Assembly: GCF_002993285.1 (NCBI RefSeq)
Contig: NZ_CP027433.1
Coordinates: 2,976,001-3,040,000, forward strand
Source of the DNA: Gordonia iterans
Lineage (GTDB): Bacteria; Actinomycetota; Actinomycetes; Mycobacteriales; Mycobacteriaceae
Reading direction: 5' to 3'
DNA: 64,000 nucleotides
The translations under genes were made by a program, and so were the position numbers. Of the stretch, positions 3,602 to 12,794 are shown piece after piece (the first letter of the stretch is position 1; every line of letters starts with the position of its first letter). A model generated the notes under the pieces. That model saw nothing but the letters and a program-made list of their open reading frames with translations, had not been told where the DNA came from and searched no databases.

Positions 3602-3624
3602 CCTCCCCGCGCGGCGCCGGTGAT

Positions 3625-5010
3625 TCAGCACACCGGAACGTTGGCAGCGAGGCCTCCCAGCGACGTCTCCTTGTACTTCGCGTGCATGTCAGCGCCCACC
3701 TGAGCCATCGTCGTGACCGCCGTATCCAGCGACACCCGGTTGCGCGGTTCACCTTCGGCTAACGTCAACATCGCTGCCTGCACCGCGGTGACCGCCGCGA
3801 TCGCGTTGCGTTCTATGCACGGGACCTGGACCAGCCCGGCGACCGGATCGCAGGTGAGACCCAGGTGGTGCTCGATCCCGATCTCCGCGGCTTTGCCCAC
3901 CTGCGCCGGGGTTCCGCCGAGGGCCGAACAGAGCGCGCCCGCCGCCATCGCACAGGCGGTGCCGACCTCTCCCTGGCAGCCGATTTCCGCGCCCGAGACC
4001 GACGCGCCGGCCTTGACGATCGCGCCGATCGCGCTGGCCGTCAGCAGCATGCCGACGGCGCCCTGTGCCCCTGCCCCGGCCGACCTCAGGTAGAAGTCCA
4101 CGACGGCAGGAATGATGCCTGCCGCACCGTTCGTCGGCGCCGTCGCGACCCGGCGCCCAGCCGCGTTCTCCTCACTGACCGCCATCGCAGCGGCGTGCAG
4201 TCGCGAGAGCTCGGACACTGCTACCGGAGCGCCACCGGTGACCGCCGCGGTGAGACGCGGAGCTCGTCGCCGCAGTGCCAGGCTCCCCGGCAGGATGGAG
4301 TCGCTGGCGCTCGCGCCACGCTCGATGGCCGCATTCATCACCCCCCACACTCGTACGAGATGGTCGTCGGGACGGCGACCACGCGCCTCTTCGTTCTGCC
4401 GCACCACCTCGTCGATCGTCATCGAGTGACGCTCACAGATTTCGACGAGCTCAACGAAGCTGCCGAAATGCCACGGAATCGCACGCCGAGAGCCCGCCTG
4501 GTGCTCGCCCTCCATGAGTACCGTGCCTCCGCCGACCGACAGATACCGCCGCAGCAACAGCGGCCGCCCGTCGCCGTCGTAGGCGGCGATGTCGATCGCA
4601 TTCGGGTGCCCCGCAGACCGGTCCTTCGGATCGAGCCGCACATCCTCTGGCCGCAACAGGAGGGGGCCGGCAGGCGAACGCACCCACGGATCCTCCGCCA
4701 ACCGGTCCCATTGCCCCCGCACCAGGAGAGGGTCACAGTCCTCTGACCGCCACCCACGGAGTCCGGCTATCACGGCATCCGGTGTCCCATGGCCGACCCC
4801 GGTGGCGCCGAGTGCGCCAAGCAGGCGAACGGACACGCGATGGGGTCTGGGCCGACCTGGCAGACCGGCCAGCTCATCGACGAACGCACGCGCGGCCCGC
4901 ATCGGCCCGACGGTGTGGCTGCTCGACGGTCCGATTCCGATTTTGAACAGGTCGTCCACTGATACATCACATGGACATTGTTCTGCCGTACACCATGAAT
5001 TATTCAGCAC
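3625..5010 (-). CDS. sdaA: L-serine ammonia-lyase (iron-sulfur type)
   Basis: A 461-residue single-chain L-serine dehydratase that converts L-serine to pyruvate and ammonia through 2-aminoacrylate, using an oxygen-labile [4Fe-4S] cluster. The N-terminal domain carries GIGPSSSHTVGPMRAA. The C-terminal catalytic domain carries AEIGCQGEVGTACAMAAGAL and DPVAGLVQVPCIERNA, which hold cluster cysteines and substrate-binding residues. The start is GTG 5010, because a TANNNT box lies 6 bases upstream; GTG 4959 is an alternative nearer the family's usual start. It is divergent from an operon containing RidA, an enzyme family that clears 2-aminoacrylate, although RidA may instead belong to that operon's own pathway. 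Confidence 0.95.
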   Translation of the reverse strand: MLNNSWCTAEQCPCDVSVDDLFKIGIGPSSSHTVGPMRAARAFVDELAGLPGRPRPHRVSVRLLGALGATGVGHGTPDAVIAGLRGWRSEDCDPLLVRGQWDRLAEDPWVRSPAGPLLLRPEDVRLDPKDRSAGHPNAIDIAAYDGDGRPLLLRRYLSVGGGTVLMEGEHQAGSRRAIPWHFGSFVELVEICERHSMTIDEVVRQNEEARGRRPDDHLVRVWGVMNAAIERGASASDSILPGSLALRRRAPRLTAAVTGGAPVAVSELSRLHAAAMAVSEENAAGRRVATAPTNGAAGIIPAVVDFYLRSAGAGAQGAVGMLLTASAIGAIVKAGASVSGAEIGCQGEVGTACAMAAGALCSALGGTPAQVGKAAEIGIEHHLGLTCDPVAGLVQVPCIERNAIAAVTAVQAAMLTLAEGEPRNRVSLDTAVTTMAQVGADMHAKYKETSLGGLAANVPVC

Positions 5011-5016
5011 ACTTTG

Positions 5017-5022
5017 AGTGTA
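5017..5022 (-). promoter_or_regulatory. Candidate leaderless -10 box of sdaA
   Basis: On the minus strand TACACT ends 6 bases before GTG 5010, the layout of a leaderless actinobacterial transcript. The box overlaps an inverted repeat ACACT-TTG-AGTGT that could bind a regulator. Confidence 0.4.
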
Positions 5023-5103
5023 TTACTGACGAAGTATCTCCGCATGCCCCAGCTAGATAGGTTGTTTCCTGGATGTTAACGACTGTTCGCATCAGATTTC
5101 TGG

Positions 5104-5133
5104 ATCTACAGTTCCTACCGCACAGCTGTAGAT
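5104..5133. promoter_or_regulatory. Inverted repeat upstream of the permease operon
   Basis: ATCTACAG (5104-5111) and CTGTAGAT (5126-5133) are perfect inverted arms separated by 14 bases, in a locally AT-rich region 37 bases before the NCS1 permease start. Position and symmetry suggest an operator, most simply for the MerR/XRE/cupin regulator encoded in the same island. The link to that regulator is inference. Confidence 0.45.
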
Positions 5134-5169
5134 TTTAGATACACCACAGATCTAGCCACAGGAGTTCCC

Positions 5170-6564
5170 ATGCCAAGGAGCAATCCAGGGATCGTCGAAG
5201 AACTCACGATCCAACCCGTGCCCGCCGACCAGCGAACCGGCACCGCACGACATCTGTTCGCCGTCTGGTTCGGCGTTCAGGTGATGCCGTTGACCCTGGT
5301 GACCGGCGTGCTCGGGCCGACCGTCTTCGGATTGGGCGCCGCATCCTCGATCATCGCCATCGTCATCGGCAATCTGATCGGGGCCTTCTTCATGGCGCTG
5401 CACTCGGTACAGGGCGCCAAACTCGGAGTGCCGCAGATGATTCAGGCCCGGGCACAGTTCGGCTTCTACGGATCGTTACTGGTGATCGCCGTGGTCATCC
5501 TCATGTACCTGGGCTTCCTGGCCTCGATCATCGTGCTCGCCGCCGACACCCTGATCGCGCTGTTCCCGGATCTGGGCACCATCCCGGCCCTGGCCGTCAG
5601 CACCCTGATCACCCTGATGGTCGTCGTCTTCGGGTACGAGGTCATCCACCGCGTCAACCGGATCCTGCTGGGACTCTTCGCACTGGCGGTGCTCCTCATC
5701 GCCGTGTACGTCGCGGTCTCTGCCGGCCAGGAGCCCGCCGAAGTCGGCTCGTTCTCGCTCGTCGGCTTCATCGGAATGGCATCGACGGCCGCCATCTGGC
5801 AGATCGCGTACGCGCCTTATGTGTCCGACTATTCCCGATACCTCCCGAAGGACACCTCACCACGTGCCGCGTTCGGCTACACCTACGGCGGTGCCGTCAT
5901 CGGCGCGATTCCGATGATGATCCTCGGCTCGCTACTGGTGACCGTCGCCGGCGGCGCCGGTTCCGTCGCTCAGCTGACCGACATGATGCCGGGGCCGATC
6001 AGCGCGTTCGTTCTGATCATGCTGTTCCTCGGGGCGATCGACGCCGCCGTGATCAACCTCTATGGACCTGCGCTCTGTTCACTGTCTGTCGCCCAGACCT
6101 TCCGCCCCAGCTGGTCGCCGGGACCTGCCGCCCGAAACACCGTGGCCGCAGCCATCGCCGGGGTGGCGTTCTTCGTGGCCATGATGTTCGCCGACGACTT
6201 CCTCGTGAACTACTCGAACTTCATTCACTTCCTGATGTGCCTGCTGATCCCGTGGAGCATCGTGAACCTGGTCGACTACTACCTCGTCTCACACGGCCGG
6301 TACGACGTTCAGGCGTTCAACGATCCCAACGCCGGTTACGGCAAGTTCAACGTTCCGGCATTACTCACCTACGTCATCGGCTTCTGCGCTCAGCTCCCCT
6401 TCATGGCCGGCGCCTTCTACACCGGCTGGGTCTCAGAACGCATGAACTCCGCGGACCTGTCCTGGCTGGTCGGCTCCGTGGTGAGCCTCGTGGTCTACCT
6501 CGTGCTAGTGCGCCGGACCACCACCAGCCCGACTCTGCCGGCGAAGACCCCGACCTTCGTCTGA
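5170..6564 (+). CDS. NCS1-family nucleobase/cytosine-type permease
   Basis: A 464-residue integral membrane transporter of the purine-cytosine permease (NCS1) family, with about 12 hydrophobic helices and the family layout of a soluble N-terminus ending in RTGTARHLFAVWFGVQVMP. The segment WQIAYAPYVSDYSRYLP in helix 6 is conserved in NCS1 carriers. Family substrates are cytosine, purines, allantoin, hydantoins and related N-heterocycles, taken up with protons or sodium. ATG 5170 has AGGAG 6 bases upstream. It is the first gene of a five-gene operon and therefore points to a nitrogen heterocycle, or similar compound, as the imported substrate of the island; the substrate itself cannot be read from sequence. 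Confidence 0.9.
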   Translation: MPRSNPGIVEELTIQPVPADQRTGTARHLFAVWFGVQVMPLTLVTGVLGPTVFGLGAASSIIAIVIGNLIGAFFMALHSVQGAKLGVPQMIQARAQFGFYGSLLVIAVVILMYLGFLASIIVLAADTLIALFPDLGTIPALAVSTLITLMVVVFGYEVIHRVNRILLGLFALAVLLIAVYVAVSAGQEPAEVGSFSLVGFIGMASTAAIWQIAYAPYVSDYSRYLPKDTSPRAAFGYTYGGAVIGAIPMMILGSLLVTVAGGAGSVAQLTDMMPGPISAFVLIMLFLGAIDAAVINLYGPALCSLSVAQTFRPSWSPGPAARNTVAAAIAGVAFFVAMMFADDFLVNYSNFIHFLMCLLIPWSIVNLVDYYLVSHGRYDVQAFNDPNAGYGKFNVPALLTYVIGFCAQLPFMAGAFYTGWVSERMNSADLSWLVGSVVSLVVYLVLVRRTTTSPTLPAKTPTFV

Positions 6565-6597
6565 GCCACCCCATCGAACCCCAAGGAGGACACTTCC

Positions 6598-7047
6598 ATG
6601 ACTACGAGCACAGAACTGCTCGTCGGCGACGGCACCGATCGCCAGCGCCTGATGAACAGCACCTGGACGCACCACATCCCCACACCGTTCGCCCAGGGCT
6701 GGAGGGTGGGGCGGCTGGTGTTCACCGGCGGGCAGCTGTCGGCAGACGAGCACGGCAATGTCGTCGGAGCAGGCGACATCGAGGTGCAGACGCGCAACGT
6801 CTTCGATTCGCTCACCTCCGTTCTGCACGAGGCCGGCGCCACCTGGAACGACGTGGTGAAGCTCAACACCTACTACTGCTTCGACGGGAGCGGAGACGAG
6901 GTTCAGCAGAACTGGGAAACCATGACCCGGGTTCGGATGGAGTACCTGCCCGACGAAGGGCCCGCCGGAACCGGAGTTCGAGTGGCCGGGCTCATGTACG
7001 ACGGCTTCCTCATCGAAGTCGAGGCCATCGCCGTCATCGCCGGCTGA
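6598..7047 (+). CDS. RidA-family protein
   Basis: A 149-residue member of the RidA/YjgF family. These small trimeric proteins hydrolyse reactive enamines and imines such as 2-aminoacrylate; a paralog, RutC, acts in the Rut pyrimidine pathway. It shows VGRLVFTGGQLSADEHGNVVG near the front and the family pattern QTRNVFDSLTSVLHEAGATWNDVVKLNTY in the middle. The usual C-terminal arginine-glutamate pair appears as GVRVAGLMYDGFLIEVEAIAV. It has a strong AAGGAGG site before the ATG and sits 33 bases after the permease, so it is clearly part of the operon. It probably hydrolyses an imine or enamine made by the neighbouring monooxygenase step. Confidence 0.88.
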   Translation: MTTSTELLVGDGTDRQRLMNSTWTHHIPTPFAQGWRVGRLVFTGGQLSADEHGNVVGAGDIEVQTRNVFDSLTSVLHEAGATWNDVVKLNTYYCFDGSGDEVQQNWETMTRVRMEYLPDEGPAGTGVRVAGLMYDGFLIEVEAIAVIAG

Positions 7048-7107
7048 CGCCTGAGCACTCGCCACCCAAACCCCACCCATCTCTCGACTTCAAAGGAACG
7101 ATTCACG

Positions 7108-8622
7108 ATGACCTCCCTTACCCCAGCAACCACGTCACTGTCTCCAGAGACCGCCGCACGGCTCCGCGTGGACATGGTCACGTCCCAGCTCTCGGGGCCG
7201 ACCGACCACCTGCTCACCGGCGAGCAGTACAAGGCCTCACTGCGCGACGGCCGCCGGATCATCAGTTCCGCCGGTGAGGAAATCAGCGACGTCACCACCC
7301 ACCCGGACCTGCGGGCAGTCAACACCCTTGCCGCAGTCCAGGACGCACAGCTCGACCCCGAACTGCGCGACACGCTCACCTATGTCGGAGACGACGGCGG
7401 ACGACGAGCGATCGGCTGGCAGGTGCCGCGCACCCGCGCCGACCTGCTCGCCAAACGCGAGGCCACTCGGGTAATCACCCAGCGAACCATGGGAATGTAC
7501 GGTCGGCCCAATGATTACGGCGCCATGATGGCGCTGGGATTCCTTTCGACCATCGACCGAATCGAGGCCGAGAACCCGGAATTCGCTCAGAACATCCGCG
7601 ACTTCGTCAGACTCTCGGGCGACCTGAACCTGCTCAGCACCGACCTCATCGCCGATCCGCAATCCGACAAGCGCATCCCCCGCAATGAACGGCCTTCTCA
7701 ACTCAGGATCGTCGAGGACAAGCCCGAGGGAATCGTGCTCTCCGGAGCCAAGGTCGCCGGCAGTATCGGTTCGCTCACTCACTTCTTCACGCTGTCGACC
7801 ACACTCGGCGAAGGCGTGGGCCCCGAGGCTGCGATCTGGGCCGCGATCCCGGTGAACTCCCCCGGTCTTAGCCTGATCCTGCGCGAACCGACCGCCCGCA
7901 TGAATACTCCGCGCAACGACCACCCGCTCGACAATGCGGGCGAGGAACTCGATCAGACCATCCTCTTCGACAAGGTCTTCGTGCCGCGCGAGTTCGTGTT
8001 CAGCAAGTACAACCTGGATCTACTCACCCTCTACTACGAATCCTGCGCCTACTCACTTTGGTCGATCATGACGCGCCTGGCCTTCCGGGCCGAGATGTTC
8101 ACGGGCGTCGCACAGGTCATCACCGAGATCCTGGGCACCGACAAGATTCCCGGCGTACAGGCCGCGGTGGCAGACATCACCCTCTACGCGCAGACCCTCA
8201 AGGCCTACTCGCTGGCGACGATCCACGAGTCCGTCGAATGGTGCGGCCTGCAGGTGCCCAATCCTGAGCTGACGACTGCAGGGCGCCTGTACTCGATCGA
8301 GAACTACCCCCGGATCACCTACCTCCTTCGCGATCTCTGCGGCCAGGCCCTGATTGCTCGCTGGCCGGAGAAGGTGTGGGACCACCCCGAGTTCGGCCCG
8401 CGGATGAACGAGTTCTTCCCTGGCACCGGCGTCACCGCGCGGGAGAAGAACACCTTCTTCAACTTCGTCTGGGACCTGGTCTCCGGTGCGCATGCCGGTC
8501 GAGTCGACCTGTTCGAGAATGTGAACGCCACCCCTCCCGCTTTCGTGCGACACCTGGTGTACAGCAAGACCGACCGCTCGGCTGCGGCACGCCGCGTTCG
8601 CGACTACGTGGGGATCGAATGA
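7108..8622 (+). CDS. HpaB-type FADH2-dependent monooxygenase
   Basis: A 504-residue member of the 4-hydroxyphenylacetate 3-hydroxylase large-subunit family, an acyl-CoA dehydrogenase-like fold that uses reduced FAD supplied by a separate reductase. Family features include the N-terminal LLTGEQYKASLRDGRRI, the mid-region DLNLLSTDLIADPQSDK and AKVAGSIGSLTHFFTLST, and the C-terminal FFPGTGVTAREKNTFFNFVWDL. Family members hydroxylate phenols, chlorophenols and some heterocycles such as pyrrole-2-carboxylate. ATG 7108 has AAAGGAA upstream, and the stop overlaps the flavin reductase start by 4 bases, so the two subunits are made together. With an NCS1 permease rather than an aromatic-acid transporter beside it, an N-heterocycle is a more likely substrate than 4-hydroxyphenylacetate. 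Confidence 0.88.
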   Translation: MTSLTPATTSLSPETAARLRVDMVTSQLSGPTDHLLTGEQYKASLRDGRRIISSAGEEISDVTTHPDLRAVNTLAAVQDAQLDPELRDTLTYVGDDGGRRAIGWQVPRTRADLLAKREATRVITQRTMGMYGRPNDYGAMMALGFLSTIDRIEAENPEFAQNIRDFVRLSGDLNLLSTDLIADPQSDKRIPRNERPSQLRIVEDKPEGIVLSGAKVAGSIGSLTHFFTLSTTLGEGVGPEAAIWAAIPVNSPGLSLILREPTARMNTPRNDHPLDNAGEELDQTILFDKVFVPREFVFSKYNLDLLTLYYESCAYSLWSIMTRLAFRAEMFTGVAQVITEILGTDKIPGVQAAVADITLYAQTLKAYSLATIHESVEWCGLQVPNPELTTAGRLYSIENYPRITYLLRDLCGQALIARWPEKVWDHPEFGPRMNEFFPGTGVTAREKNTFFNFVWDLVSGAHAGRVDLFENVNATPPAFVRHLVYSKTDRSAAARRVRDYVGIE

Positions 8623-9224
8623 TGACCGTTCACCTCGCCCGGTCCACTCAGCTCACGCGCTCGACAGTGCCGGCTATGGCACAGGAGGCAGCCGTACCCG
8701 GACAGATCCTGGGGGCGGAGTCGTTCCGAGCCTCGATGAGCAAGCTCACAACGGGAGTAGTCCTGGTCACCGCGCTGATCGACGACAGGCCCTGGGGTGT
8801 CACCCTCAGTTCGGTCTCCTCGTTCTCCGCCGATCCCGCGCGCCTGTCACTGTCGGTGACACACCGAAGTGCGCTCGGGCAACATCTGAGCCGTCACCAC
8901 GCGGCTTTCGGCGTCTCGATCCTGACCGACAAGCTCGCTCCGCTCGCCCAGCAATTGGCGACCCCGGGCAAGCCGAAGTTCATCCCCGCACCGTATCTGG
9001 CCGAGGACGGCCCGACCACGCCACCGACGATCCAGGGTGCGATGGACAACCTGCACTGCCGCGTCGCCCACGTCGTCCAGGCACTCGACCACATTCTGGT
9101 GATCGCCGACGTCGTCGCCTCCGTGGTCGGCTCCGAAGTCGCTCACGCGCGTCCCTTGGCGTACTTCGACCGCAGCTTCGGCTCGTTCGCACCCAGCACC
9201 ACAGAAGGAGATCAGCAACAATGA
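8619..9224 (+). CDS. Flavin reductase domain protein (HpaC-like)
   Basis: A 201-residue flavin reductase-like FMN-binding-barrel protein, the usual partner of HpaB-type oxygenases. After a short N-terminal tail come SFRASMSKLTTGVVLVTA and WGVTLSSVSSFSADPARLSLSV, the flavin-binding core of this family, and a C-terminal AHARPLAYFDRSFGSF. It reduces FAD with NAD(P)H and hands FADH2 to the oxygenase. ATG 8619 overlaps the oxygenase stop; a second ATG follows immediately at 8622. Its stop overlaps the start of the cyclase-family gene (ATGA), so three genes are translationally chained. Confidence 0.92.
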   Translation: MMTVHLARSTQLTRSTVPAMAQEAAVPGQILGAESFRASMSKLTTGVVLVTALIDDRPWGVTLSSVSSFSADPARLSLSVTHRSALGQHLSRHHAAFGVSILTDKLAPLAQQLATPGKPKFIPAPYLAEDGPTTPPTIQGAMDNLHCRVAHVVQALDHILVIADVVASVVGSEVAHARPLAYFDRSFGSFAPSTTEGDQQQ

Positions 9225-10000
9225 CGTCCCTCGACCACGAGCGCCGCCAGCAGGCACCCACGCTCGGCACCGAACTGTTGACCAACCGGAAGAGAATCGT
9301 CGATCTGACACGGCCTCTCTACGAAGGGATGCCGATGTGGTTCGGGCATCAGCGCACCTTTACACCGGTCAACCAGACCCACGAACAGTTCAAGGAGCTT
9401 TACGGCACCGAGGACGGTTTCTACGCGCGAAACCTCGTGATCAGTGAGCACGCCGGTACCCATACCGACGCCACGATCGAATACGACCCTGACGGGTGCA
9501 CCATCGACAACACCCCGCTGAGCTACTACTACGGTTCGGCGGTCTGTTTGGACCTGTCACACGTGACATTCCGCTCTCCTGACCCGGACCGCACAGGTTA
9601 TGCCGGCCCCACAGACATTCAGAAGGCCGAGGAGAAGCTCGCCGCACAGGGCCAGCACATTCAACCCGGTGACATCGTTCTGGCCTGGTTCGACTACGGC
9701 GACCGCTGGTTTCCAGAACGCAAGTACATCGACGAGAATCCCGGATTCTCGTGGGAGGGTGCCGAGTATCTCGCCACAAAGGGGGTGGTAAACATCGGCA
9801 CCGATTGCAACGCCATCGACAACAGTCTCGACAGCACCTTCGCGGGGCACATGGTGTGCAAGAAGTACGGCATAGTCAACACCGAGCATCTGGCGAACCT
9901 GGGCGAGTTGGCGAGCACCCGATTCGACTTCTACGGCCTGCCACTGAACATCCGGGGCGGCACCGGGTCGCCGATCCGGGCGATCGCGGTTCTCGACTGA
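9221..10000 (+). CDS. Cyclase-family metal-dependent hydrolase
   Basis: A 259-residue protein of the cyclase/kynurenine formamidase superfamily, which hydrolyses amide or lactam-like bonds with a divalent metal. The signature HAGTHTDA (from residue 79), the H-x-G-T-H-x-D metal site, is intact. A further family element, GVVNIGTDCNAIDN, and FAGHM follow in the second half. Known members open isatin, cleave N-formylkynurenine or act on other cyclic amides. It has AAGGAGA upstream and is the last gene of the operon. In this context it could open a ring or remove an N-formyl group after oxidation; this is inference. Confidence 0.88.
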   Translation: MTSLDHERRQQAPTLGTELLTNRKRIVDLTRPLYEGMPMWFGHQRTFTPVNQTHEQFKELYGTEDGFYARNLVISEHAGTHTDATIEYDPDGCTIDNTPLSYYYGSAVCLDLSHVTFRSPDPDRTGYAGPTDIQKAEEKLAAQGQHIQPGDIVLAWFDYGDRWFPERKYIDENPGFSWEGAEYLATKGVVNIGTDCNAIDNSLDSTFAGHMVCKKYGIVNTEHLANLGELASTRFDFYGLPLNIRGGTGSPIRAIAVLD

Positions 10001-10037
10001 GTCGATGACGCCGTCACCCGCGCAATCGTCACCGGCC

Positions 10038-10895
10038 TCAGAACGTGGGCGGTGTGTTGACCCAGACCACGCGTGCGGTGACGGCGCCTCGATTCGTGTA
10101 GCTGTGCGGCCGCGTACTGGCGAAGGTCATCGAATCGCCGGTCCCGAGCACAACTCTTTCGATGCCGTCGAGAACCAACTCGATCTCCCCTTCGATCACC
10201 GTGAGGAACTCTTCTCCGGCGTGACTCATCGGGGCCCCGCTGCCGCGGCCGGGTTCCACCGTGACCAGCTGCGACTGCAGGACGGTCGACGCGTCGTACA
10301 GGTTCTCGATCACCACCCCGGGCGCGCCCAGCGGAAGTGTGGTCCGCCGGTCGGCACGCACTACCGAGCCGTTGCCGCCGACCGTCATGCCCAGCAGGTC
10401 CGGTGTCGTGGTACCCAGCGCATGCGCGATCTGCGTGATTCGTCCAATGCTCGGCGTACTGACGCCACGTTCGAAGGCACTCAGCGCAGAGGGACTCACA
10501 CCGATGCGCCGAGACAGTTCACGCAGGCTCATTCGTTGCCGACTCCGCAACTCCCGGACCCGGGCACCCAGCGCCGCCGAATCCTCGTGATCGACGGCAT
10601 CCTCGCGTTCGGGCTCGCCAAGTGCCTGCCGGACCCCGACGATGGTCATCGACTTGGTCGCAAGGAGCCGACGGATCCGCTCGAGTCGCCGGACATCCTC
10701 CATCGTGTACAGGCGCTGACCTGACGCCGTTCGCCGGGGAGCGATCAACCGCTCGTTCTCCCACTGACGCAGCCGCGACACCGACACGCCGACGATACGT
10801 GCGGCCTGCCCGATCTTGAGTAAGACCGACGATCGCGCGTCGAGAGGATCTGTCTCGGGCACCGCACCGTCACCCACAGTCATCTCGAATCTCAT
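10038..10895 (-). CDS. MerR-type HTH + XRE HTH + cupin regulator
   Basis: A 285-residue predicted transcription factor with three domains. Residues about 25-95 form a MerR-like winged HTH (LKIGQAARIVGVSVSRLRQWENERLI). Residues about 105-165 form an XRE/Cro HTH (VRELRSRQRMSLRELSRRIG, then SPSALSAFERG). The C-terminal third is a cupin sensor (HAGEEFLTVIEGEIELVLDG). XRE-cupin regulators commonly control catabolic and transport genes by binding a metabolite. The added MerR-like domain is unusual. It points against the permease operon and is only 16 bases from the divergent VOC gene, so it probably regulates both arms of the island. A second in-frame ATG at 10883 is possible. Confidence 0.85.
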   Translation of the reverse strand: MRFEMTVGDGAVPETDPLDARSSVLLKIGQAARIVGVSVSRLRQWENERLIAPRRTASGQRLYTMEDVRRLERIRRLLATKSMTIVGVRQALGEPEREDAVDHEDSAALGARVRELRSRQRMSLRELSRRIGVSPSALSAFERGVSTPSIGRITQIAHALGTTTPDLLGMTVGGNGSVVRADRRTTLPLGAPGVVIENLYDASTVLQSQLVTVEPGRGSGAPMSHAGEEFLTVIEGEIELVLDGIERVVLGTGDSMTFASTRPHSYTNRGAVTARVVWVNTPPTF

Positions 10896-10911
10896 TCACG
10901 GAAGGAACACC

Positions 10912-11502
10912 ATGACATTCACGAGCGTCGATCATATCGTTCTGGCATGTCCCGACCTAGAGCGCGCAGAACGCGTGTTCACCGACCGGCTCGGTGCGGC
11001 ATGCCGGGGCGGAGGCTCACATGACGGCATCGGCACTCGCAACCGGATACTGCCCCTCGGCGAGAGCTACCTGGAGTTCGTCACCATCGACGATTCAGCC
11101 GCCGCTCAGCAACACCCGTTCGGCCGGCTGGTGCTCGACGCGATCGACCGGAAGGCACTGTTCGCGGGGTGGGTCACCGCCGGTGAGGTGCGCGGCGACG
11201 ACCGCGCCCGGGTACAGCGCGCCGGGGTCTCGGTGTACTTGGAGGGTTGTCTGCGGGCCATCGACCGTCCAGACCTGCCGATCCGCCTCGCCCGGCCGGC
11301 CGAACAGGCCTTCCCCGGAGACACGCCTGCGCCACGAGCCCTGGTCGAGTTGGAAGTCCGCGGGCCCAGCGACCCGGAACCGGGCAATGGACCGACGCGC
11401 ATCGTCCACCGTCGTACGGCACAGTCCGAGATCCGGTCGTGCACGATACTGAACCACGCGGGCGACCGAGTGACGATCGACCAGACGTGGGCAGTCCGAT
11501 GA
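10912..11502 (+). CDS. VOC/glyoxalase-like domain protein
   Basis: A 196-residue protein beginning with a vicinal-oxygen-chelate fold (TFTSVDHIVLACPDLERAERVF, glyoxalase-like domain), where H9 would be the first metal ligand and E in GESYLEFV a second. VOC proteins include dioxygenases, isomerases and lyases, so the reaction cannot be named. ATG 10912 has GGAAGGA upstream and is preferred to the longer frame, which would overlap the divergent regulator. Its stop overlaps the M20 hydrolase start (ATGA), so the two form a second operon arm of the catabolic island. Confidence 0.8.
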   Translation: MTFTSVDHIVLACPDLERAERVFTDRLGAACRGGGSHDGIGTRNRILPLGESYLEFVTIDDSAAAQQHPFGRLVLDAIDRKALFAGWVTAGEVRGDDRARVQRAGVSVYLEGCLRAIDRPDLPIRLARPAEQAFPGDTPAPRALVELEVRGPSDPEPGNGPTRIVHRRTAQSEIRSCTILNHAGDRVTIDQTWAVR

Positions 11503-12674
11503 AGAGCATCGACATCGTCACCCTTCGTCACGAACTGCACCAGATCCCCGAAGTCGGCCTCCACCTGCCGATCACCCAGCGCTACCTGCTCGCGGTCCTG
11601 GACTCCGAGGGAATCGACTACCTCACCGGCGAATCCATGACGTCGGTCACGATCGTGATCCGCGGCGGTGCCGCGGACCGCCGGGCCACAGTGCCCACCG
11701 TGCTGGTGCGGTCTGACATGGACGCCCTGCCCGTCGCGGAAGAGACCAATCTTCCTTGGGCGTCCACCAACGGTGCCATGCATGCGTGCGGGCACGACGC
11801 CCACATGGCGATCGTGCTCGCCGCCACCGTCGCCACCCATCGTGCCCGTGCAACCCTGCAGGGCGACGCGATCTTCTTCTTTCAGCCCGGTGAAGAGGGC
11901 CACGGAGGAGCCCAGCTGGCCCTCGCCGAGGGTCTGCTGGACGTCGCGGGAACCAGACCGATCGCCGCACTCGGCCTCCACGTCCTCTCGAATCTACTCG
12001 ATGCCGGCCAACTAGCCGGCCGTCCGGGACCGATCCTCTCCGGATCGACTCTGGTCGACGTCAACGTCTCCGGTCGCGGCGGGCACGGCTCGACGCCGCA
12101 TCTCACGGCCAGCCCGTTGGCGGCCGCGGCGGCCATGGTCGGCGCCGTGGGTGCTGTCAGCGCGCACTCGGTCTCGATGTTCGAACCCGCGACGGTCGGA
12201 TTCGGCGCTCTGCGCTCGGGCGAGGCCCGGAACGTGGTTCCCGATCACGCCGTGCTCCAAGGCGTGATCCGCACGTTCGACACCGACACCGACAGCCACC
12301 TGCGGCAGTGCCTGGAACGCACGGTCAACGGAATCGCGATGGCGCACGACGTCGAAGCCACGGTGACCTACGCTCAGGACACCGTTCCGACCGAAAGCGA
12401 CCCCCGGGAGTTCGCTCTGCTGAGAGGCATCGCGCGCGGTCGCGGTATCCAGCTCACCGAACTGCCGCAGCCCATCGCCATCTCCGAGGACTTCTCCTGG
12501 ATTCTCCGGGCAGTACCGGGAGTCTTCGTCCTGATCGGCGCCGGACGGAGTGACTCCCCGGAGTCCAACCACTCGCCGCGCGCAACATTCTCCGACGACG
12601 TGCTGGCGCCTTCCGCCGATCTCGTGATCGCTTGGGTGCAGGACCGTCTCGCCGCGGGTGCGCAAAAGCCGTGA
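11499..12674 (+). CDS. M20D-family amidohydrolase (hippurate/N-acyl-amino-acid hydrolase type)
   Basis: A 391-residue M20 metallopeptidase family amidohydrolase. It starts with the typical LRHELHQIPEVGLHL, then shows VRSDMDALPVAE, HACGHDAHMA and FQPGEEGHGGAQLALAEGLLD, which hold the metal-binding Asp, His and Glu residues. The dimerisation domain with GRGGHGSTPHL follows, then SEDFSWILRAVPGVFVLIGAG at the end. Family members hydrolyse amide bonds of N-acyl amino acids, hippurate or carbamoyl compounds. In this island it would release an amino acid or ammonia from a late intermediate. Start ATG 11499 is fixed by the 4-base overlap with the VOC gene. Confidence 0.9.
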   Translation: MKSIDIVTLRHELHQIPEVGLHLPITQRYLLAVLDSEGIDYLTGESMTSVTIVIRGGAADRRATVPTVLVRSDMDALPVAEETNLPWASTNGAMHACGHDAHMAIVLAATVATHRARATLQGDAIFFFQPGEEGHGGAQLALAEGLLDVAGTRPIAALGLHVLSNLLDAGQLAGRPGPILSGSTLVDVNVSGRGGHGSTPHLTASPLAAAAAMVGAVGAVSAHSVSMFEPATVGFGALRSGEARNVVPDHAVLQGVIRTFDTDTDSHLRQCLERTVNGIAMAHDVEATVTYAQDTVPTESDPREFALLRGIARGRGIQLTELPQPIAISEDFSWILRAVPGVFVLIGAGRSDSPESNHSPRATFSDDVLAPSADLVIAWVQDRLAAGAQKP

Positions 12675-12716
12675 CGGACCGGTGATCGGCTGACGGGGAC
12701 TCACCCCGATACGCTG

Positions 12717-12746
12717 CGGCCGCCCCGGTGCCTGCCGGGACGGCCG
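12717..12746 (+). terminator. Hairpin downstream of the M20 hydrolase
   Basis: CGGCCGCCCCGG and CCGGGACGGCCG pair with one mismatch around a TGCCTG loop, 42 bases after the M20 stop. No T-run follows, so it may act as an actinobacterial intrinsic terminator without a U-tract. Confidence 0.4.
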
Positions 12747-12794
12747 TCTCCGTCGCACCGCGATACCTGCCGGCGCGGTGCCGCTTCGGCGGCG

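Follow-up and report, generated by a model that had tools for sequence, protein, structure and literature searches.

We describe a nine-gene block in a 64,000-nucleotide stretch of Gordonia iterans contig NZ_CP027433.1 (hereafter the window), which appears to be a mobile catabolic island exchanged among actinobacteria. The block encodes a permease, a Rid-family protein, an HpaB-type oxygenase with its flavin reductase, a cyclase-family hydrolase, a regulator, a VOC protein, an M20 amidohydrolase and an L-serine ammonia-lyase (Table 1). That it serves the breakdown of a small nitrogen-containing heteroaromatic compound, by hydroxylation and then hydrolysis to serine and pyruvate, we regard as an evenly balanced proposition. 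The model builds on observed gene content, conservation, one-unit insertion, association with a serine lyase, subgroup residues of the oxygenase and exchange of hydrolases; from these we infer all of the chemical steps and their order.

Insertion and conservation of the block

In the window, 9.2 kb separate the lipocalin and glyS (glycyl-tRNA synthetase) genes that flank the island. In a relative from the same genus (G008) the matching genes lie ~0.24 kb apart, with no match for the island between them by blastn or tblastn; by itself this empty site is compatible with either insertion or loss. The GC content of the island is 65.2% against 69.1% in the remainder of the window. The permease, HpaB and cyclase genes have a GC content of 61-64%, and every 1.5-kb block of the right flank is higher (minimum 66.1%). 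No tRNA was detected at either edge of the island, nor were there clear flanking repeats. An HpaB match at E 1e-60 or better was present in 6/301 genomes drawn from the family, three of which (the source genome, G276 and G097) carry copies that are 87-100% identical, and the island of G276 matches that of G. desulfuricans NBRC 100010.

Searching genomes for the co-occurring set, as had been suggested in an initial annotation of the window, recovered it in Rhodococcus, Gordonia, Mycolicibacterium and an Arthrobacter plasmid. The order permease, Rid, HpaB, flavin reductase, cyclase, then the regulator on the minus strand, then VOC and M20, is the same in R. erythropolis NBRC 15567, G. desulfuricans, G. 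alkanivorans and M. komossense, whilst the set is present in rearranged form in a Mycolicibacterium metagenome-assembled genome (MAG) and on the Arthrobacter sp. NicSoilE8 plasmid. Since the order is kept in four actinobacteria and a genome of the same genus lacks the block at the same locus, the grouping of these genes is not due to chance. Between the window and the nearest four carriers the Rid, HpaB and cyclase proteins are 75-90% identical, and the flavin reductase, VOC, M20 and serine lyase proteins 41-66%. The Rid protein, at 85-90% identity across genera, is among the most strictly kept members.

Domain profile searches found every gene named in the initial annotation, at the same positions and on the same strands, including the regulator between the two arms and the pairing of an HpaB-type oxygenase (PF11794/PF03241) with cyclase-family (PF04199) and M20 (PF01546) hydrolases. 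Its proposal of a catabolic island is supported, and the island is here extended to nine genes that move horizontally; the VOC and L-serine ammonia-lyase genes were absent from its list. Stop and start codons overlap at 8619 (HpaB stop and reductase start), 9221 and 11499, which fits an operon structure. The permease scores 91.6 bits with TIGR00800, under the narrower cut-off of that model (353.1), and had no match by sequence among solved structures.

Table 1. Features of the island, with positions in the window.
Feature	Position	Strand	Evidence
L-serine ammonia-lyase (SDH_alpha/SDH_beta, sda_mono)	3628-5010	-	TIGR00720 476.7 bits, cut-off 345.1
NCS1-family permease	5170-6564	+	PF02133 172.9 bits over whole model
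Rid-family protein without the RidA/RutC catalytic arginine (Gly124)	6598-7047	+	PF01042; alignment of island relatives
HpaB-type (group D) flavin-dependent monooxygenase, subgroup A	7108-8622	+	PF11794 182 bits, PF03241 110.5 bits
Flavin reductase (reductase component)	8619-9224	+	PF01613 85.5 bits
Cyclase-family metal hydrolase (isatin hydrolase/kynurenine formamidase fold), presumed ring/amide hydrolase	9221-10000	+	PF04199 104.4 bits
Three-domain regulator, MerR + XRE HTH + cupin	10038-10895	-	PF13411, PF01381, PF07883
VOC/Glyoxalase_3 protein, presumed epimerase	10912-11502	+	PF13468 84.9 bits
M20 amidohydrolase (N-acyl amino acid hydrolase type), PF01546	11499-12674	+	TIGR01891 222.2 bits, cut-off 153.75
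Inserted segment (island), nine genes	about 3602-12794	no strand	blastn/tblastn of window against the G008 region

The serine lyase belongs to the island and stays with it in different arrangements. It is the sole copy in its genome. Island-type HpaB occurs in 4/59 genomes of the genus (G000, G276, G661 and G687), and exactly the same four have a serine lyase with an identity of 55% or higher, ten others carrying a more distant type alone. The probability of a random four-genome set coinciding is 1 in 455,126, a figure to be read with the facts that two of the four carriers are near-identical and that the 55% threshold was set after the fact. In one further cluster (L020) the lyase lies downstream of the M20 gene with the same orientation; in G687 its position is 3 kb downstream. 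We rejected the view of the lyase as a housekeeping neighbour, given that it is sporadic (14/59 genomes), lies inside the inserted segment and co-occurs with HpaB.

The M20 protein passes the TIGR01891 cut-off, and its relatives in the PDB (YxeP, IAA-amino acid hydrolase and N-acyl-glutamine aminoacylase) include enzymes for N-acyl amino acids; an ectoine-type M20 (DoeB2) was rejected on score (215 of 550 bits). Methylmalonyl-CoA epimerases are among the closest folds to the AlphaFold model of the VOC protein (mean pLDDT 74), at a Z of about 12 that is common to several VOC enzymes and does not fix function; H8, H37 and E55 are invariant. On the Arthrobacter plasmid the VOC and M20 genes are fused as a single ORF, which supports consecutive steps. 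A presumed epimerase joined to an amidohydrolase, with an L-serine lyase after them, may be read as a route from N-acyl-serine to L-serine to pyruvate.

The oxygenase, its hydrolase partners and the Rid protein

The island oxygenase carries both domains of 4-hydroxyphenylacetate 3-monooxygenase (HpaB_N and HpaB), but its equivalog scores fall under the cut-offs (203.4 of 480.2 and 137.2 of 885.2 bits) and its residues depart from those of that enzyme. On alignment to Thermus HpaB (2yyg), R133 and Y137 correspond to its R100 and Y104, and H142 is replaced by D179; we take R100, Y104 and H142 to be the substrate-binding residues of HpaB. The window protein additionally has S177 and S299.

HpaB loci were gathered from the genome scan plus annotated plasmids, and a single split with support of 100 separates their tree into two subgroups. 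Subgroup A, which includes the island, has Y137, S177, D179 and S299 (Gly at 299 in one member), and subgroup B has L137, E179 and N299. A NicX-type gene neighbours HpaB in 31/31 subgroup B rows, none of which has a Rid, cyclase or PuuE-like match. All subgroup A rows with enough flank (loci L010/L028, L024 and L036 are too short for scoring) have a cyclase or PuuE-like hydrolase as neighbour and none has a NicX-type gene. The NicX-type protein of subgroup B, annotated as a leucyl aminopeptidase, matches a solved 2,5-dihydroxypyridine 5,6-dioxygenase at 3.6e-69. This is good evidence, though from one split and not a repeated correlation, that the two subgroups work in nitrogen-ring pathways with different modes of ring opening, and the position of the sister subgroup beside NicX-type dioxygenases supports a nitrogen heteroaromatic substrate for subgroup A. 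A sequence rule is thereby suggested, with D179 accompanying hydrolytic partners and E179 NicX-type partners, which could separate nitrogen-ring oxygenases from phenol hydroxylases among proteins now labelled 4-hydroxyphenylacetate monooxygenases.

Conserved clusters of HpaB, NicX, amidase and carboxymuconolactone decarboxylase genes were observed in Brucella, Ochrobactrum, Rhizobium and Paracoccus (L039-L058). Plasmid records label their oxygenase 4-hydroxyphenylacetate hydroxylase, but its substrate is probably a pyridine.

The HpaB fold also invites a conventional reading, in which the enzyme is a phenol ortho-hydroxylase of a phenol or aminophenol pathway and the Rid protein acts like 2-aminomuconate deaminase. 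The solved relatives, although of low similarity, are chlorophenol, nitrophenol and 4-hydroxyphenylacetate monooxygenases, so that the closest are indeed phenol hydroxylases. However, Asp179 takes the place of His142 throughout subgroup A, the HpaB equivalog cut-offs are not reached, the island contains no ring-cleavage dioxygenase, and its Rid protein has no counterpart of the arginine retained in 2-aminomuconate deaminase (PMC6742747). We therefore consider a phenol pathway very improbable.

The hydrolase that accompanies subgroup A has been exchanged. Mapping the labels cyclase, PuuE-like and NicX on the HpaB tree needs three changes, one of which separates the NicX group, and the branches with good support require that the cyclase label and the PuuE-like label each arose more than once; Leucobacter and Nocardioides HpaB copies with a PuuE-like enzyme are placed inside the cyclase clade. 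As the two partners, which are unrelated amide hydrolases, have been swapped more than once, they probably carry out the same step. In clusters of the Streptosporangiaceae type, an agmatinase/formimidoylglutamase-family gene is found in 3/4 and no Rid was found by profile search. Loci L030, L032 and L033, HpaB subgroup A clusters that have a gene of this family and no detected Rid, look as if one had replaced the other.

The AlphaFold model of the cyclase (mean pLDDT 76) has isatin hydrolases (Z 24.7) and the bacterial kynurenine formamidase KynB (Z 23) as its closest matches, almost level with each other. In the enzyme the metal-binding H77, H81 and D83 (HxGTHxD) are invariant, a feature that it has in common with both enzymes along with the fold. 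The isatin hydrolase motifs are HxG[T/A]HxDxPxH and GLQC/GLAS (PMC6117287); the island enzyme has T85-x-E87 where the first ends in PxH, and E222 at the site of the second. The Glu of KynB is present, although the score with the KynB model (TIGR03035) is 61 bits against a cut-off of 223.05. Judged by its motifs, the cyclase is not an isatin hydrolase. Isatin, one of the ring types listed in the initial annotation, is thereby less likely as substrate (PMC6117287); the others are not separated by these data.

For the proposed order of steps, the strongest chemical precedent is that of PKC and HpoH, cyclase-family enzymes that act on 2,3,6-trihydroxypyridine in the breakdown of nicotine and 2-hydroxypyridine (PMC6214936). 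After flavin hydroxylation, PKC is proposed to hydrolyse the N1-C6 bond of this compound (PMC6214936). The island itself could follow such a pyridine route, with HpaB hydroxylating a hydroxypyridine and the cyclase hydrolysing its N1-C6 bond. The precedent (PMC6214936) and the NicX-type 2,5-dihydroxypyridine dioxygenases adjoining the sister HpaB subgroup speak for this. However, it predicts a dicarboxylic or ketoglutarate-type product, leaves the M20, VOC and serine lyase genes unexplained and finds no omega-amidase in the island, and we consider it unlikely.

The position of RidA Arg105 is occupied by Gly124 in the window protein and by G, A or T in nearly all aligned members; an arginine was never seen there among the aligned island relatives. 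The IExE region is kept. The Rid4-Rid7 subfamilies are described as having the Rid fold with the glutamate but without the arginine, and the window protein is at most a candidate for one of them. Arg105 is essential for RidA activity (PMC4433059) and the R104A variant of RutC is inactive (PMC8113886). For Rid proteins lacking this arginine no reaction is known, and the work that established the subfamilies describes them as mysterious (PMC4433059). In the island such a protein lies in a compact set whose partners have predictable chemistry, which puts its reaction within reach of a few assays.

A proposed pathway and its alternatives

In the model, the NCS1 permease would import a small nitrogen-containing heteroaromatic compound, and HpaB, supplied with FADH2 by the flavin reductase, would hydroxylate the ring next to the nitrogen, giving a cyclic amide (the tautomer of a hydroxy-heteroarene). 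The cyclase-family metal hydrolase would open this amide, and the Rid protein may then speed hydrolysis or tautomerisation of the opened product in a reaction other than the classical 2- or 3-aminoacrylate one. The VOC protein would epimerise the product and the M20 enzyme remove the remaining N-acyl group (formyl, carbamoyl or acyl), freeing L-serine, which the ammonia-lyase would convert to pyruvate and ammonia. The signal for the cupin regulator is presumably the substrate or one of the intermediates. We weakly and tentatively favour a ring with an N-C-N unit (imidazole or pyrimidine class) because of the two successive amide hydrolases, the agmatinase- and adenine deaminase-type enzymes in related clusters, and the NCS1 permease. 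It is a rather doubtful, if specific, proposal that the island encodes an undescribed oxidative-hydrolytic route for such a ring, with an HpaB that has Asp for the phenol-binding His, a cyclase that has Glu for the catalytic His, the first defined reaction of an arginine-less Rid protein, and an exit through L-serine and pyruvate.

Several points weigh against this pathway. Each of the steps is a prediction from gene sequence. The split between HpaB subgroups is a single evolutionary event, such that the association of residues with the type of ring-opening enzyme has been observed once. The cyclase and PuuE-like families both act on cyclic amides (isatin hydrolase, allantoinase) and on linear ones (KynB, polysaccharide deacetylases), and the swap between them therefore points to amide hydrolysis rather than to ring opening as such. 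Glu222, which is invariant, is of the KynB type, and Glu87 stands in place of the proton-accepting His (PMC6117287), which makes ring opening by the island cyclase less than certain. Deaminase activity is not reported for any Rid protein that lacks the arginine (PMC8113886, PMC4433059), and the proposed Rid step is thus without precedent. Finally, many distant clusters of subgroup A lack the serine lyase and the VOC-M20 pair, and these enzymes may act on a side group instead of on the ring.

Taken further, this last point would give the block two independent functions, whereby the permease-to-cyclase arm degrades a ring and the serine lyase, VOC and M20 genes serve an unrelated conjugate and merely co-travel. 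The latter three genes have normal GC (0.68 against 0.61-0.64 for the permease, HpaB and cyclase genes), change more rapidly between carriers (identity of 41-66% against 75-90%) and are absent from many distant clusters. Yet the arms occur together in every carrier of the same genus and, differently arranged, in other families, and we hold a division of function to be improbable.

A compound of the pyrrole-2-carboxylate type could also be accommodated. HpaB would hydroxylate C5, the cyclase would open the lactam and the enamine would be hydrolysed to 2-oxoglutarate and ammonia, after M20, VOC and serine lyase had removed a serine or other amino acid conjugate. The order of roles fits, one island carrier is a Rhodococcus, and a two-component flavin-dependent pyrrole-2-carboxylate monooxygenase from Rhodococcus is said to have been described in older biochemical literature. 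The term itself occurs once in a review (PMC6165268). However, the searches turned up no sequence of the Rhodococcus enzyme to set beside HpaB; the arginine that enamine hydrolysis needs is missing from the Rid protein, and the serine arm is left over. We rate this a little below the already unlikely pyridine route.

In proposing oxidative opening of a nitrogen heterocycle, the initial annotation finds favour as regards the compound class, given the NicX-type genes beside the sister HpaB and the cyclase precedent (PMC6214936), whilst the detail, ring opening included, is predicted. It further knew of no described pathway with precisely this set, and a full-text literature search, whose coverage leaves out many relevant journals, returned no assignment.

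Comparison with known systems and related clusters

The likeness to the Rut pyrimidine pathway drawn in the initial annotation holds for general roles, namely a permease, a flavin oxygenase with reductase, a Rid protein and hydrolases. It does not extend to role-for-role identity, and the defining features of Rut that we examined are absent. RutG is an NCS2 permease and that of the island is NCS1. RutA is a luciferase-like oxygenase, whereas the island enzyme carries HpaB_N and HpaB only. The Rid protein scores 50.5 bits with the RutC model (TIGR03610, cut-off 169.1) and lacks the RutC arginine (Arg104/105), and the flavin reductase scores 31.7 bits with the RutF model (TIGR03615, cut-off 254.75).

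Hydantoin utilisation employs an NCS1 permease, a hydantoinase, a racemase and an L-carbamoylase. By general pathway logic the island resembles it, having an NCS1 permease, an amide hydrolase, a presumed epimerase and an M20 enzyme in the same logical order, but the hydrolase and epimerase are of different families and the island adds an oxygenase in front. In the lower pathways of nicotine and 2-hydroxypyridine breakdown the hydroxylase is of another type than HpaB. Compared by description only, these pathways are alike in proceeding from hydroxylation to a PF04199 hydrolase proposed to open the nitrogen ring and then an amidase (PMC6214936), but no set of Rid, NCS1, VOC, M20 and serine lyase is described for them. 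The HpaB-NicX clusters of subgroup B have in common with the island a sister HpaB, a flavin reductase and the nitrogen-ring chemistry implied by NicX; they differ in opening the ring with a NicX-type dioxygenase followed by amidases, in lacking a Rid protein and in the subgroup residues given above. A Rhodococcus skatole cluster (PMC13101512) was rejected as a counterpart, its oxygenase belonging to group E.

Lastly, several related loci contain additional genes. The Arthrobacter plasmid has an alanine dehydrogenase and a formate dehydrogenase-like molybdopterin gene between permease and HpaB (L002, 3666-7286), a pair that possibly handles formate and an amino acid product. A small Paracoccus plasmid, p5 (L069, NZ_CP115763.1, 7838-13452), encodes a Rid protein (68%), an M20 enzyme, an adenine deaminase-like amidohydrolase and a cyclase (50%) with no HpaB, and its regulator has the same MerR + XRE + cupin architecture as that of the island. 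In a Thermoleophilia MAG (L021, 10649-18007), genes for a soluble di-iron monooxygenase, together with a GroEL-like gene, separate HpaB from additional Rid and cyclase genes. One 4939-base contig, having the same gene set and an HpaB with no differences, occurs both in a genome titled Acidobacteriaceae and in one of the window's own family (L028 and L086, G207:C378), which makes the naming or binning of that genome doubtful. Moreover, Klebsiella plasmids (205 of the matched records) and Acetobacter plasmids encode a cytosine-permease-like protein that shares ~42% identity with the permease of the island. In the two neighbourhoods inspected (L070, CP107226.1, 2857-11533, and L072) this gene adjoins genes for Rid, ArgE, DUF1028, FAD oxidoreductase, GMC oxidoreductase and aldehyde dehydrogenase proteins, and is part of another catabolic set.

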